The notes below the pieces were generated by a model. It was given only the letters and a program-made list of their open reading frames with translations, had not been told where the DNA came from and made no database searches. Positions 2,907 through 12,854 of a stretch of DNA of 21,189 nucleotides are shown piece after piece. Position 1 is the stretch's first letter; each line of letters begins with the position of its first letter. Source of the DNA: a virus; IMG/VR virus record IMGVR_UViG_3300009183_000423, positions 1 through 21,189 of that record; one strand, given 5' to 3'. Position numbers and translations under genes: made by a program.

Positions 2907-3557
2907 TTATAAATTTGATAGAAATTCGTTGAACAGATTGAGTTTCTGTTCATCCAATCTCTTTTGATCAACTAATGTATTTATTCTTCTTTGAATGTTA
3001 CTTGCATTCTTTTCTCTTAAAATAGTTCCTTCCCAAATCCATTCTTTTCCTTCCATAATCCCATTTACAAATGCATCTGGTGCAGAAGGATCTGCAACAA
3101 TATCAGCAGCAGTGGCAAGCATAAAATCTTCACCAACAACTTTATGTCCTTCATTCGTTTGAATTAATGAACCAACACCACGAGAAGAAACACCAAGAGT
3201 TACACCTTCACCGATAAGTGATTGTGCAATTTTACCCATAGGAGTAGAAAGAAGTTGCGATCTTCCTTTAAAATTATCTCCTTCACGAACAAGTGAAGTA
3301 ATTTTATGAGAAACACGATCTAAATTGATTGTTGGTCCATCTGGGTGGCCAAGTTCCCCAAGAGCACGACCCTTTTGGATGAAAGATTCATTATAACGAT
3401 TTACTTCACGGTTAAGAATATCTACTGGATATTCTCTTCCATTACGATTTCTCATATTTCCTTGAAGGTATATGCCCTCAATAAACATTTTCTTTTCAGC
3501 ACCCTTTCCTTCAACAATAAATTCAACTTTTTGTACTTCTTCTGTGATTAGTTTCAT
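2907..3557 (-). CDS. 21: Prohead core protein protease gp21
   Basis: This 216-residue serine protease of the T4 gp21 / herpesvirus assemblin fold (peptidase family U9/S80-type) cleaves scaffold and capsid proteins after (I/L)xE during head maturation. The sequence shows the expected catalytic His in GELGHPDG (H71) and the Ser in LGVSSRGVGS (S124 or S125). An Asp in ADIVADPSAPD (D152 or D156) follows. The N-terminal half (FIEGIYLQGNMRNRNGREYP) is typical of the family. Possible self-cleavage sites are IVE-G (14-17), IME-G (167-170) and IWE-G (174-177). GGAGA, overlapping the end of the preceding gene, supports the start; only two bases separate the two genes. It lies between the head core genes and gp22, as in T4. 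Confidence 0.93.
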   Translation of the reverse strand: MKLITEEVQKVEFIVEGKGAEKKMFIEGIYLQGNMRNRNGREYPVDILNREVNRYNESFIQKGRALGELGHPDGPTINLDRVSHKITSLVREGDNFKGRSQLLSTPMGKIAQSLIGEGVTLGVSSRGVGSLIQTNEGHKVVGEDFMLATAADIVADPSAPDAFVNGIMEGKEWIWEGTILREKNASNIQRRINTLVDQKRLDEQKLNLFNEFLSNL

Positions 3558-9135: not shown

Positions 9136-10785
9136 TTAGTTATATTCCCACATATAAGATCTGTCTCCATATTCATCTATATGCCATCTATCTCCATCAA
9201 CATCTACAAATGAAGTTTCTTCATTAATTCCATCAGAAATAAACCCAAATGGAGACATATCCGCTTCAATTTGATCTTTCTGTTCTTCATATATTCTTTT
9301 GCGGACATCATTATCCGTCATTTCTCTAAAATAATCCTGAATAACTAACCAAGCAAAAATTACTAAACACATTGCTAAGTCATCATTACAACCTTCTTCT
9401 GCTTCAAATGATTGATTTTTTTGAATAAAAGTTGTCAATTCACTAATAATGTCATAATCGCTAATTATTAATTTATCATCTTCTATGATTGTTTTTAAAT
9501 TTGAACATCCAACTTTTTTTACAGTTTTGGACATTTTCACACCAAGTTGAGATTTCTTTCCAGAAAATCCTTGCCCAACTAATTGTCCTGCCCTACCTCT
9601 CATTGAACACATCAAAATGTTATCATATTCCAAATCAAAGTGAAGTATTGTTGATACTTGTTCTCCAATATCATTAACCTCAACTAAAACAAAGCATTTA
9701 TTGTATGCTTTTGCAACATCATGTATGATATTTGGAAAAAGCATTGGTTTTATTTCATTATTTCTATATTTTGCAACAACTCTATATGGGAAAGTAGTAA
9801 TATCAAAAACTACAAATGCAGAATAGTCATTACTCATACCTCTAGAAACGTCAACAGTCATCAAATAACTATTGTCCTCAATTGGTTCGTAATATACATC
9901 AAGACCTTTATTCCTTTTCAATGGATCTTCATAAACCATTGATCTAAGTTTGGATGGAGTAATTAAAGTATCAACAGACCCAAGAAATTCGCACTCAAAC
10001 TCTTGTGTGAACTGTCGTTCAGAAGTATTCGCAATTGTTTGTCGTTTCCACTCTGCGTCCCTTCCAGGCACTGCAGACCAATGAACTTCGAGTGGAATAT
10101 AACCATTCTTTCCTCTTTCGGCATCGTGCCAAAGTTTATAAAACATATTCATCCCATTAGGAGTTGAGATGATAATGACTTTTGTACTTGATCCTGAAGA
10201 AATAGTAGGATACACAGAAGAGAAAAACTGTTCTGCGATATGATTTGGAATGAACGCAAATTCGTCCAAGAAAATAATATTAAAAGAGTTTCCTCTAACA
10301 GCAGATGATGATGTGGATGCTGCTACAATTTTAGAACCATTTTCAAGTTCCAAAGAACCTTTGTTCCAAGAACCAACCCCTTGCTGCAACCACTTTGGCA
10401 AATTCTCATAAGATAGTTGCAATCTACCTAAAAGTTCTATTGCAGTTGCTGCTTTGTTTGCTAGAATTGCAATTCGTATATTATCATTAAAAAGGGCATA
10501 GTGAAGAAGATAAGATACAACAGTTGTTGATTTTCCTGTCTGCCTAGGAAGTTTTGCAATATTAAATCTATTTTGATGAAAGTTTGTAATCAATTCTTCC
10601 TGAAAATCATACATACTGAATGGAATTAATCCATCATCAAGAGAAACAATTTTTATATAATTTTTTGCAAAATATATTGGATCTTCTTTGCACCTTATAT
10701 ATTCTTCAATATTTTCTTTAGTAAATTCAATTTGAACGTTTTCAGCTTTTAAATTGGGATTTCCCTTATAATGTTTTTCTACCAT
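9136..10785 (-). CDS. 17: Terminase large subunit gp17
   Basis: This 549-residue packaging motor ATPase and headful nuclease docks on the gp20 portal. The ATPase domain has the Walker A variant LPRQTGKST (79-87), Walker B IIFLDEFA (171-178) and the coupling motif ISTPNG (206-211). The RNase H-like nuclease domain has metal-binding acids in VDVSRG (D312), VEVND (E369) and CNDDLAM (D468/D469), matching the T4 triad D401, E458 and D542. All key residues are intact. T4 gp17 has 610 residues; the difference is mainly at the N terminus. The C terminus ends in an unusual Asp/Trp/Tyr-rich tail. The start codon overlaps the stop of the 60-residue gene by one base (TAATG) and there is no clear Shine-Dalgarno sequence, so translational coupling is likely. 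Confidence 0.97.
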   Translation of the reverse strand: MVEKHYKGNPNLKAENVQIEFTKENIEEYIRCKEDPIYFAKNYIKIVSLDDGLIPFSMYDFQEELITNFHQNRFNIAKLPRQTGKSTTVVSYLLHYALFNDNIRIAILANKAATAIELLGRLQLSYENLPKWLQQGVGSWNKGSLELENGSKIVAASTSSSAVRGNSFNIIFLDEFAFIPNHIAEQFFSSVYPTISSGSSTKVIIISTPNGMNMFYKLWHDAERGKNGYIPLEVHWSAVPGRDAEWKRQTIANTSERQFTQEFECEFLGSVDTLITPSKLRSMVYEDPLKRNKGLDVYYEPIEDNSYLMTVDVSRGMSNDYSAFVVFDITTFPYRVVAKYRNNEIKPMLFPNIIHDVAKAYNKCFVLVEVNDIGEQVSTILHFDLEYDNILMCSMRGRAGQLVGQGFSGKKSQLGVKMSKTVKKVGCSNLKTIIEDDKLIISDYDIISELTTFIQKNQSFEAEEGCNDDLAMCLVIFAWLVIQDYFREMTDNDVRKRIYEEQKDQIEADMSPFGFISDGINEETSFVDVDGDRWHIDEYGDRSYMWEYN

Positions 10786-10967
10786 TATTTAATTATGTTT
10801 GTTTCTATTGCGGATAATGTTTCTTGTTGCTTAAAATAAAGTTTAATAAAAGATTTAGCAAGATTTTTTACAAATTTTATATCATCACAACTGTCTATTT
10901 CTCTTGAAATTTTTTCATATTCAAATATTTTACTCAAATTATTAAGTTCAATACTGTTTGGGTCCAT
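10785..10967 (-). CDS. Small conserved protein of unknown function upstream of gp17
   Basis: I choose the ATG at 10967, giving 60 residues that start MDPNSIELNNLSKIFEYEK. GGAG lies seven bases before it, whereas the longer frame upstream reads into the preceding gene and has no ribosome site. The protein looks helical; FEYEKISREIDSCDD and AKSFIKLYFKQQETL resemble short proteins I recall near gp17 in marine T4-like phages, but I cannot name a function. It overlaps the end of the 484-residue gene by 20 bases and the start of gp17 by one base. Its expression is therefore tied to the terminase. Confidence 0.75.
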   Translation of the reverse strand: MDPNSIELNNLSKIFEYEKISREIDSCDDIKFVKNLAKSFIKLYFKQQETLSAIETNIIK

Positions 10968-12402
10968 TTGTATCTCCAGTAAATAATAATGGTTTTGTTG
11001 GGTCTTTTGTGGATGGATTAAATGACAAGACAATTGCATTTGGATAAATTTTTCTTACTTCATCCGTGACTTGTTTTTTCGTTGGTCTTGTGAATTGCGG
11101 GAAAAACATCTGTGATGTAATATATTTCCCTCTCCAATTTAGTAGTATACTATAAGTTGTTCCGCGAGTTTGTATTCGTAGATAGTTTTCATCTATATCT
11201 TCAATTGTTGCTGATTCATTTGCAGGATACGGCATTGTTATATTATAATCTTTTTTTGAACTAATTATCTCTGCTGGTAAGGAGAACATATCCCAATATT
11301 TTGTACCATACTTACATTCTGTTCTTTTTTCGAGTTTTTCACATTTTGGACAATATCTATCTGCTCTTTCACGAATTAAAGTATGCCAATCACCCCCAAG
11401 TGAATCAGTACTTTCAGATTTTGTTCCCCAATTTGCAGCACCAACTTTACGACATTTTACAACTGCTCCAGAAGCATAAGCACTAGGCCAAACTTTATAC
11501 CTTGATTTGACTTTTGTTTTACAGGCATCTTCTTCTACATACTCTTCTGTTGCAACATTTATTGCCTTACCTTTTCTGTCTGGGTTTGGATCTTCTTTTC
11601 TCTTTCTTCTTGCTGCTGCATTTTCTTCATCATCAGACATATTTGCAGCCATTTTTGACGAACCACATTTTGGTTTAGTATTTTGTCCTGGTTGCTTCGC
11701 ACAAGGTTTCCCAGCATATTTCCCTCCCAATTGAACCCATCCTGGTTTTCCATCTTTTGATTTACTTTTGGAAAACCAATCGTGTAAAGAATAATCTCCT
11801 GATTTTCTTCCTTCACTAATACCTTTCATTTTTTCTGATTTGATTAAATCTATAATTTCTAAAAAGGTATTTCCATTTGCATCTTCAATTGTCACTGTCT
11901 CTTTAACATCTTTGAACTTTTTATGCTCTTTTTTTGCAGATGCTTCCATTTTTTTCAAACGAGTATAATAATCTGGAATTTCATCAAGATGTTGAAGAGC
12001 AATATCAATTGCTAAAGTTTTATTTTTTGTGTGTTCGTGTTCAATAGGAGCACCCATATCAAGTTGCTTCTGAATATCCGAAACATTCATACGATGTTTC
12101 CTTGCAATTTGCTCTACCGTTTTATGTGGTTTTAATTGCTCATTAACTTCTGTTTCTGACTCTCCACTATCCATATGGTCAGCAACAGTATCAATATAAT
12201 CAGCAGCTTTCGTGATTTTTGATTGTATCCAAGCTTCTAAATTTCCCTCACCGTTCAATTTTTTCAATAATCTGTCAATTGCATTTTTTGCAGTTTTTAA
12301 CTCACTTCTTGCCATTGAAAATTCATAATCTTCTGATATGATGGAATTACAAATCATCATATCTGTAATGAATCTCCAATTTTTAAAAGAGTTAATGCTC
12401 AT
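10948..12402 (-). CDS. 484-residue mosaic protein between the terminase subunits (DUF5661-like and DUF5872-like parts)
   Basis: I do not recognise a function, but several blocks resemble parts of marine phage proteins. Residues about 30-80 (ARSELKTAKNAIDRLL, then AWIQSKITKAADYIDTVADH) form a helical block seen in phage structural proteins. Residues about 92-153 (TVEQIARKHRMNVSDIQKQL, EHEHTKN, HLDEIPDYYTRLKKME) match my memory of DUF5661. Residues about 203-330 (LHDWFSKSKSKDGKPGWVQL, PNPDRKGKAINV, VWPSAYASGAVVKCRKVGAA) match DUF5872 and are very basic. CPKC at 351-354 with C363 looks like part of a zinc knuckle. Residues about 395-476 are a further folded part. A gp21-type site ISE-G lies at 195-198, so a processed, DNA-associated head protein is possible. 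A GGTAGAG element upstream supports the start. It splits gp16 from gp17. Confidence 0.85.
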   Translation of the reverse strand: MSINSFKNWRFITDMMICNSIISEDYEFSMARSELKTAKNAIDRLLKKLNGEGNLEAWIQSKITKAADYIDTVADHMDSGESETEVNEQLKPHKTVEQIARKHRMNVSDIQKQLDMGAPIEHEHTKNKTLAIDIALQHLDEIPDYYTRLKKMEASAKKEHKKFKDVKETVTIEDANGNTFLEIIDLIKSEKMKGISEGRKSGDYSLHDWFSKSKSKDGKPGWVQLGGKYAGKPCAKQPGQNTKPKCGSSKMAANMSDDEENAAARRKRKEDPNPDRKGKAINVATEEYVEEDACKTKVKSRYKVWPSAYASGAVVKCRKVGAANWGTKSESTDSLGGDWHTLIRERADRYCPKCEKLEKRTECKYGTKYWDMFSLPAEIISSKKDYNITMPYPANESATIEDIDENYLRIQTRGTTYSILLNWRGKYITSQMFFPQFTRPTKKQVTDEVRKIYPNAIVLSFNPSTKDPTKPLLFTGDTNGPKQY

Positions 12403-12422: not shown

Positions 12423-12854
12423 TTATTTAGTTTTATCTTCAGGGTTTATCCCATTTTTGATTAATTTGTGAAGATCTGCCGTTGAACCAATGAATACAGA
12501 ATTGTTTACTGTAGATGGTCGTTTTGTTTCTTCTTCTCTTATTTTTTTATTTTTTTGTTGTAAGTCCATAAGTTTATCGGCAACGTCGGCAATATTTTTA
12601 ATTCCCTGAAGTGCAACTTCAAAGTCTCTTGCTTTTTCTGAACTTTGTGCTAATTCTAATATACTATCAATTGCTTCTTGTCCTTTTTCCAATAAAGCAT
12701 AATAATGTCCTCTTGTATATTCATAATCGGCATCTAAATCATTTTTATCTATTGGTATAGATAATTTTGATGGAGATCTTTTTATAATTTCCTTTTCTAT
12801 GGGAGTTGCCTCTATCTCTAATGCTTCATTAATTTCTTCAAATTTGTTATTCAT
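12423..12854 (-). CDS. 16: Terminase small subunit gp16
   Basis: This 143-residue protein should recognise DNA and stimulate the gp17 ATPase; T4 gp16 has 164. The family pattern is visible in DADYEYTRGHYYALLEKGQE, which enters the long central helical region IDSILELAQSSEKARDFEV (residues 62-80). VALQGIKNIADVADKLMDLQ (80-99) continues it and drives ring formation. The basic stretch KKIREEETKRP follows, and the C terminus is variable. The start overlaps the gp15 stop in an ATGA junction, and AAAGGT lies just upstream inside gp15. The next gene is the 484-residue mosaic rather than gp17. Confidence 0.9.
   Translation of the reverse strand: MNNKFEEINEALEIEATPIEKEIIKRSPSKLSIPIDKNDLDADYEYTRGHYYALLEKGQEAIDSILELAQSSEKARDFEVALQGIKNIADVADKLMDLQQKNKKIREEETKRPSTVNNSVFIGSTADLHKLIKNGINPEDKTK

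Follow-up and report, generated by a model that had tools for sequence, protein, structure and literature searches.

A reshuffled mosaic protein encoded between gp16 and gp17 of cyanophages is a predicted head-internal polyprotein

Between the small and large terminase genes of the virus studied here lies a gene for a 484-residue mosaic protein, which is very probably a head-internal virion protein. The explanation that we favour, and consider reasonably likely, goes further: the protein would be targeted in the manner of the T4 internal proteins and made as a modular polyprotein that the prohead protease gp21 cuts. According to this scheme, (i) an N-terminal targeting peptide would take the precursor into the prohead core (for the window protein itself, a prediction), (ii) gp21, which cuts after phi-x-Glu, would strip that peptide, (iii) further cuts at the module junctions would free several small, partly basic proteins, (iv) the freed modules would remain with the DNA and probably enter the host at infection and (v) modules would be reshuffled among phages in a single gp16-gp17 hot-spot. 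The scheme builds on what is established here or published, namely family membership, synteny, shuffling, virion detection of two members, a capsid-targeting sequence (CTS) in many relatives and motif statistics; the family, its position and its presence in virions were already known.

The mosaic gene and the gp16-gp17 interval

The window, that is, the whole 21,189-nucleotide stretch that was analysed (IMG/VR record IMGVR_UViG_3300009183_000423), carries the mosaic gene on the minus strand at 10948-12402, with its ATG at 12402, preceded by a plausible ribosome-binding site, and its stop codon at 10950-10948 (484 codons). The ORF, found in 80 homologous loci and in a constant position wherever neighbours are present, is a real gene, far beyond chance. 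A PHROGs profile search assigns its product to phrog_727, the T4-GC119 family (E 5.1e-72), and its place downstream of gp16 agrees. Along the minus strand the genes run gp14, gp15, gp16, mosaic gene, 59-aa ORF, gp17, gp18, gp19, gp20, two small genes, gp21, gp22 and gp23, where gp15, gp16, gp17 and gp21 are named by profile and the rest by order and sequence. The upstream neighbour is the small terminase gene gp16 (12423-12854, minus; phrog_445, E 1.5e-45). On the other side are a conserved 59-aa ORF (10964-10785, minus; phrog_27081, E 2.8e-29), which stands directly ahead of gp17 in nearly all close relatives, and the large terminase gene gp17 itself (9136-10785, minus; Terminase_6N/6C). Terminator-like sites number 6 vs 1.5 in shuffles, none of them tied to the mosaic gene, and a promoter scan found promoter-like sites at chance level.

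Several other genes of the window merit mention. Its gp15 (13903-12851, minus) is longer than usual at 350 aa, and a match of residues 251-318 to a tail-fibre PHROG suggests an extra C-terminal domain. Between gp20 and gp21, an acidic 70-aa protein (4320-4108, minus; phrog_14164, unnamed) has the place of T4 gp67 and a gp67-like acidic tail, and a DUF7243 protein (4108-3560, minus) precedes gp21. A DUF7243 relative in S-SM1 (L085, 4082-4618) lies between gp16 and the mosaic gene, and S-CREM1 gp176, labelled 'ubiquitin-like modifier-activating enzyme', belongs by eye to the same family and is probably misnamed.

A prior sequence-only reading had taken gp16 and gp17 for usual neighbours that are here set apart, and had proposed a survey of their spacing. 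They are indeed set apart, but a gene in between is the rule in this clade. In a set of 84 cyanophage-like IMG/VR loci that were collected by means of gp17, not of the mosaic protein, and that have both terminase genes in order, gp16 and gp17 are never adjacent: no gap is shorter than 150 nt (the smallest is 271 nt and the median 1.69 kb), modules of the mosaic family occupy it in 82 loci and a multi-module ORF in 74. This interval is one of four hot-spots in Synechococcus phages (Sullivan et al., 2010, citing Millard et al., 2009; PMC3037559). Since the gp17-recruited loci almost all carry modules and the hot-spot was already listed, the insertion is a trait of the clade and not an oddity of this phage. 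Other cyanophages also have genes for structural proteins, metabolic enzymes and a DUF7243 protein in this interval, and gp16 and gp17 overlap in T4 and likewise in C48C1, a distant Kyanoviridae record. In one locus (L066, 5325-8496), the gp17 ORF is interrupted by an intein-like stretch with a weak NCBIfam match.

Module anatomy

The family was resolved from about 300 IMG/VR loci into ten recurring modules, A to J, which occur in 76 orders among 292 complete unique ORFs (single-module ORFs counted). Comparison with relatives resolves the window protein into a 24-residue N-terminus followed by A-B-C-D-E-F-G. The mosaic make-up that had been read from the sequence thus holds, although its division into at least four blocks gives way to one into seven modules; that blocks recur in other marine phage proteins is borne out by the occurrence of the module family across cyanophage loci.

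All parts are encoded on the minus strand. Residues 1-24 (MSINSFKNWRFITDMMICNSIISE; 12331-12402) form a predicted N-terminal propeptide of a divergent F-K-N-W type ending in I-S-E↓D (the arrow marks the putative cut), as judged from the site list and the N-termini of relatives. Module A (residues 25-88, SMARSELK..AADYIDT; 12139-12330) is helical, with a linker that ends V-N-E↓Q. Module B (residues 89-168; 11899-12138; ending V-K-E↓T) contains the DUF5661 domain that had been recognised at 92-153 and that Pfam confirms at residues 97-153 (PF18905; 49.6 bits vs a cut-off of 27, E 5e-13). The short module C (residues 169-197, TVTIEDANGNTF..IDLIK; 11812-11898) ends I-S-E↓G. Modules D (residues 198-291; 11530-11811; ending V-E-E↓D), which is basic with two invariant Cys, and E (residues 292-345, KSRYKVWPSAYASGAVVKC; 11368-11529; ending I-R-E↓R) both have invariant Cys and many Lys/Arg. 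A DUF5872-like block had been placed over 203-330; the resemblance is smaller, being confined to residues 292-330 of module E and falling below the gathering cut-off (PF19197; 15.2 bits vs 27.5). Module F (residues 346-405; 11188-11367; ending I-D-E↓N) has a CxxC...C zinc-ribbon-like motif, and module G (residues 406-484; 10951-11187), which is beta-alpha-beta and basic (pI 10.1), has in many marine relatives a gene to itself, with a CTS. Module J, from other members, is DUF6321 by profile search. Residues 25-484 have a pI of 9.0, with modules B, D, E and G at 9.4-10.1 and A, C and F acidic. In one relative (L064, 1807-3822), the SAYA^SGAVV motif, which is invariant in module E, is split by a 281-aa insertion; this insertion is intein-like in that it starts with Cys, contains TPNHKW and ends GN↓S, and Pfam and NCBIfam gave no confirmation of an intein.

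It had been considered that the blocks might match one known enzyme over their full length or that the whole architecture might be an already characterised family. Pfam and PDB searches found no such enzyme and no full Pfam identity for the mosaic protein. The family is a known one, phrog_727 / T4-GC119, but its function is not given in the records; its Pfam and PHROG matches include no internal-protein family. AlphaFold2 models had a pLDDT of 52.5 for the whole protein (22-row alignment) and 61.6 for modules D-E (16 rows). Foldseek found no PDB match with E below 0.001 for either model, and the named significant matches in a viral library were further proteins of cyanophages and a single DUF5872 protein from an uncultured phage. 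The sole PDB match by sequence profile, the polyketide-synthase fusion 6gw3_D, was dropped as other chains of the same enzyme gave no support.

Targeting signals and presence in virions

Virion proteomics of related isolates, which had been named as a way to examine the protein's role, is already published, and two members of the family were detected. S-SCSM1_29 (SSCSM1_29) carries the annotation 'virion protein' in S-SCSM1, whose virion proteins were identified by mass spectrometry in the genome study (PMC9602691). S-CREM2 gp137, by sequence a family member with modules G and J, is represented by four unique peptides (4.1% coverage) in the virion proteome, and its neighbour gp136 by eight (PMC10665884, Table 3). 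In records of other phages the family is labelled 'structural protein, T4 GC0119'. Detection thus rests on these two relatives, from which the presence of the window phage's own protein in virions is predicted. As for the suggestion that the protein's place links it to packaging or the head, virion detection, CTS and gp21-type sites favour the head or virion, and no finding connects the protein with the packaging motor.

The N-termini of relatives point to a way in. A strict CTS pattern, M..[FY]..[FY][ILMVF].E (random rate 6e-5), is found in 44 of 65 close relatives (among them the same gene at the same locus), which are not independent of one another, vs 1 of 339 other ORFs of the same loci, and that lone match is a separate module-G protein adjoining a member. 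Frequent forms are MKTFQEFILE↓A, MKTFSQFLLE↓A, MKNFKEFIDE↓T and MKSFKQFIKE↓T; T4 IPII and IPIII begin MKTYQEFIAE↓A, and ipII and ipIII are the only matches to the strict pattern in 41 kb of T4. In T4 IPIII, targeting depends on residues 4 and 7 and processing on residues 8 and 10 (PMC9026906); positions 4, 7, 8 and 10 are the conserved CTS positions in the relatives.

For the two cyanophage genomes backed by proteomes, the pattern was widened so that residue 4 could also be Leu and residue 7 Trp. Six of the 219 S-CREM2 proteins match, and five of these were found in virions (p 0.003): the SAM hydrolase gp6, gp13, the APH-like kinase gp14, gp136 and the cytidylyltransferase gp154. In S-SCSM1, the matches that are real genes are gp30 (module G), absent from the virion list, and the NMN adenylyltransferase gp91, which was detected and for which the authors of the virion study thought a structural role unlikely. 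With both phages combined, six of eight CTS proteins are in virions (Fisher p 0.001): a CTS-type N-terminus predicts virion presence. The two genomes also encode three proteins with a second type of motif (FSNWR, ending in phi-x-E), and each of these is a virion protein. This is weaker evidence because the motif was defined after family members had been viewed and one match needed a loosened form.

The non-structural S-CREM2 virion proteins gp6, gp13, gp14 and gp154 (OR473000; L313 and L315) all start with a T4-like CTS, one of them being only 78 aa long; this signal on the SAM hydrolase, the APH-like kinase, the cytidylyltransferase and the 78-aa protein would explain their presence in virions. 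S-CREM2 Cas9 (gp12, OR473000 10313-7704), also in virions, has a CTS-like RFASFMAE↓A after about 17 residues and is, from its sequence, possibly packaged in the head. The gene for the NMN adenylyltransferase gp91 of S-SCSM1 (L318, 38819-40048) encodes a strict CTS, MKSFLQFLKE↓A, and a relative (L115, 1326) has MKRFGDFFSE↓A.

The window protein itself has SFKNWRF...IISE↓D in its N-terminus, which does not match the strict pattern and resembles the second type (F-K-N-W-R), with a perfect I-S-E site directly before module A; the N-terminus of another member (L017, SFKEW...SIQE↓D) likewise has its site directly before module A. Most marine members, including the virion-detected S-SCSM1_29, are without an N-terminal CTS. 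Internal CTS-like motifs occur in 61 of 169 such members vs 0 of 854 control ORFs, and these members may enter the head by means of the internal motifs or of a partner protein.

Junction sites, competing readings and significance

The protease gp21 cuts after L/I-x-E (PMC9026906). The window phage encodes one (2907-3557, minus; Peptidase_S77, Pfam E 2.6e-34), the predicted processing enzyme, whose local specificity is given by the N-terminal site of the major capsid protein gp23 (231-1634, minus): FLYE↓AGPT, aligned by eye with LLTE↓A in S-CREM2 and FLTE↓A in T4. With the junction site taken as the last Glu before an internal module, an imperfect rule that before F picks a Glu inside the linker, P3 is hydrophobic (I/L/V/M/F) in 65.8% of 482 unique junction hexamers. 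Controls gave 10.4% for within-module Glu, 33% for Glu in other ORFs and 18% for shuffled linkers (maximum 23% in 1000). P2 is hydrophobic in 5.8%, P1' is mostly G, A, K, D or S, and 80% of the family's junction linkers contain [ILVMF]xE. The window protein has nine such sites (24, 88, 141, 168, 182, 197, 291, 345 and 405), of which seven fall in the seven linkers, one in each (p 0.001); both within-module sites have Ile at P1'. The signal is uneven: it reaches 77-100% at the junctions that lead into B, G, I and J and 35-54% at those that lead into A, C, D and E, and it is low before F (absent by the last-Glu rule). P3 is hydrophobic in the majority of cases for just 24 of the 47 junction types; V and M are often found there, whereas T4 gp21 prefers L/I. 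The propeptide has its L/I-x-E site (IISE↓D, residue 24) and the phage its gp21 gene, and it is highly likely that gp21 cuts at least at the N-terminus. From the junction sequences, it probably also cuts at several junctions.

For modules D, G, H and J there are also free-standing genes, each with a CTS (85 unique sequences for G, five for H). A separate J is S-CREM1 gp179 (MKTYNDFITE↓VAAWQRK), and a separate D (L338) begins MKSFAEFIDE↓SKSGDSSLRDWF and is followed by E and G. For both, the distance from cut to core equals one that is common at mosaic junctions (VSE↓GAAWTKK and VSE↓SKSGDSSLRDWF). The simplest history, judging by these sequences, would be that CTS-bearing cargo proteins were fused and their cut sites retained.

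Such a history also suits a head-internal multi-domain protein that gp21 trims once at the N-terminus and otherwise leaves intact, since relic phi-x-E sites are expected at the junctions if, as seems clear, the modules arose by fusion of separate CTS-bearing proteins. The CTS and virion evidence also fits that protein and the P3 signal is weak before several modules, but P3 remains hydrophobic even as the residue found there (V, L, I, M, F) varies and the flanks diverge, which looks like continued selection, and the sites keep a fixed register; we regard an intact protein as unlikely. Sites of gp21 type throughout a chain are also typical of degraded T4 core proteins (PMC9026906), and the coverage of S-CREM2 gp137, despite its four unique peptides, is low. 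Both would suit a helper of the prohead core or scaffold, comparable to T4 gp67, gp68 or IPIII: such a protein would give the head its shape, be degraded by gp21 and for the most part leave before the DNA is packaged, and would play no part in the host. The extreme shuffling and the basic, Cys-containing modules are, however, unlike conserved scaffolds, and the window has a separate gp22 as well as the small acidic gene in the gp67 position, which makes such a helper quite improbable.

Two further roles were weighed. Records that say only 'structural' or 'virion' protein would suit an outer decoration or tail-associated protein, but the CTS and gp21-type sites of relatives indicate passage via the prohead core and no tail or fibre homology was found with Pfam, PHROGs or the viral structure library, so that we give this very little credence. 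The constant place between the terminase genes recalls an accessory factor of the DNA-packaging motor. This was rejected because T4 and C48C1 are without the gene and unrelated genes fill the interval elsewhere; the occurrence of the protein in virions also speaks against such a factor, which we consider barely credible.

The T4 internal proteins are a functional class rather than one homologous family. IPI, IPII, IPIII and Alt are head-internal, CTS-bearing, processed by gp21 and injected; the mosaic family shares with them the CTS of relatives (aromatic at 4 and 7, I/L at 8, Glu 10 followed by A or S), a net basic mature chain, a gp21-family protease in the phage, presence in virions (in relatives) and a highly variable gene content. 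It differs in having several modules per chain with repeated phi-x-E sites, in its place between gp16 and gp17 and, for the window protein, in a longer, divergent N-terminus. The T4 core proteins gp22 and gp67 also have several gp21-type sites per chain, whereas those of the mosaic family lie at junctions of conserved modules that change order between members and are found as stand-alone genes as well. In the giant phages phiKZ and SPN3US, internal or ejection proteins likewise lie within the head, and the prohead protease cleaves them on the C-terminal side of a Glu that follows a short motif; this is mainly propeptide removal, and shuffled module polyproteins are not described in the same source (PMC9026906). 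Publications and database entries found for phrog_727 / T4-GC119 'structural protein', which is the same family at the same locus, give no function, targeting signal or processing model. T4 achieves head loading and processing with single proteins, and shuffled fusions were not found in the literature searched. That literature, which included few subscription journals, likewise held neither the CTS link, the periodicity of gp21 sites nor the polyprotein reading, and no paper joining prohead protease, polyprotein, phage and cleavage sites; capsid targeting sequences and cyanophages were mentioned together in a single review.

By analogy with the T4 internal proteins, injection of the freed modules into the host has perhaps an even chance of being right. 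IPI blocks a restriction enzyme in T4, and on that analogy the modules would most likely serve counter-defence or host take-over, either of which would fit their shuffling. More tentatively, the mosaic proteins could be fused and reshuffled CTS-tagged cargo from which gp21 frees about 5-8 proteins per head for injection, with the same CTS code loading enzymes such as the NMN adenylyltransferase, the SAM hydrolase, the APH-like kinase and possibly Cas9.

It is as internal head proteins that T4 sends anti-restriction and host-modifying factors into the cell along with its DNA; beyond T4-like coliphages and a few giant phages, few such proteins have, to our knowledge, been identified. If the proposed scheme is true, (i) a short N-terminal code would reveal a cyanophage's head cargo from sequence alone, (ii) an explanation would be at hand for the puzzling enzymes that virion proteomics has found in cyanophages and that the authors were unable to separate from carry-over, (iii) a polyprotein cut by gp21 in the prohead would be an unusual way for a phage to obtain equal amounts of several proteins and (iv) the long-noted variable 'structural protein' of abundant marine phages would become a set of testable injected effectors.
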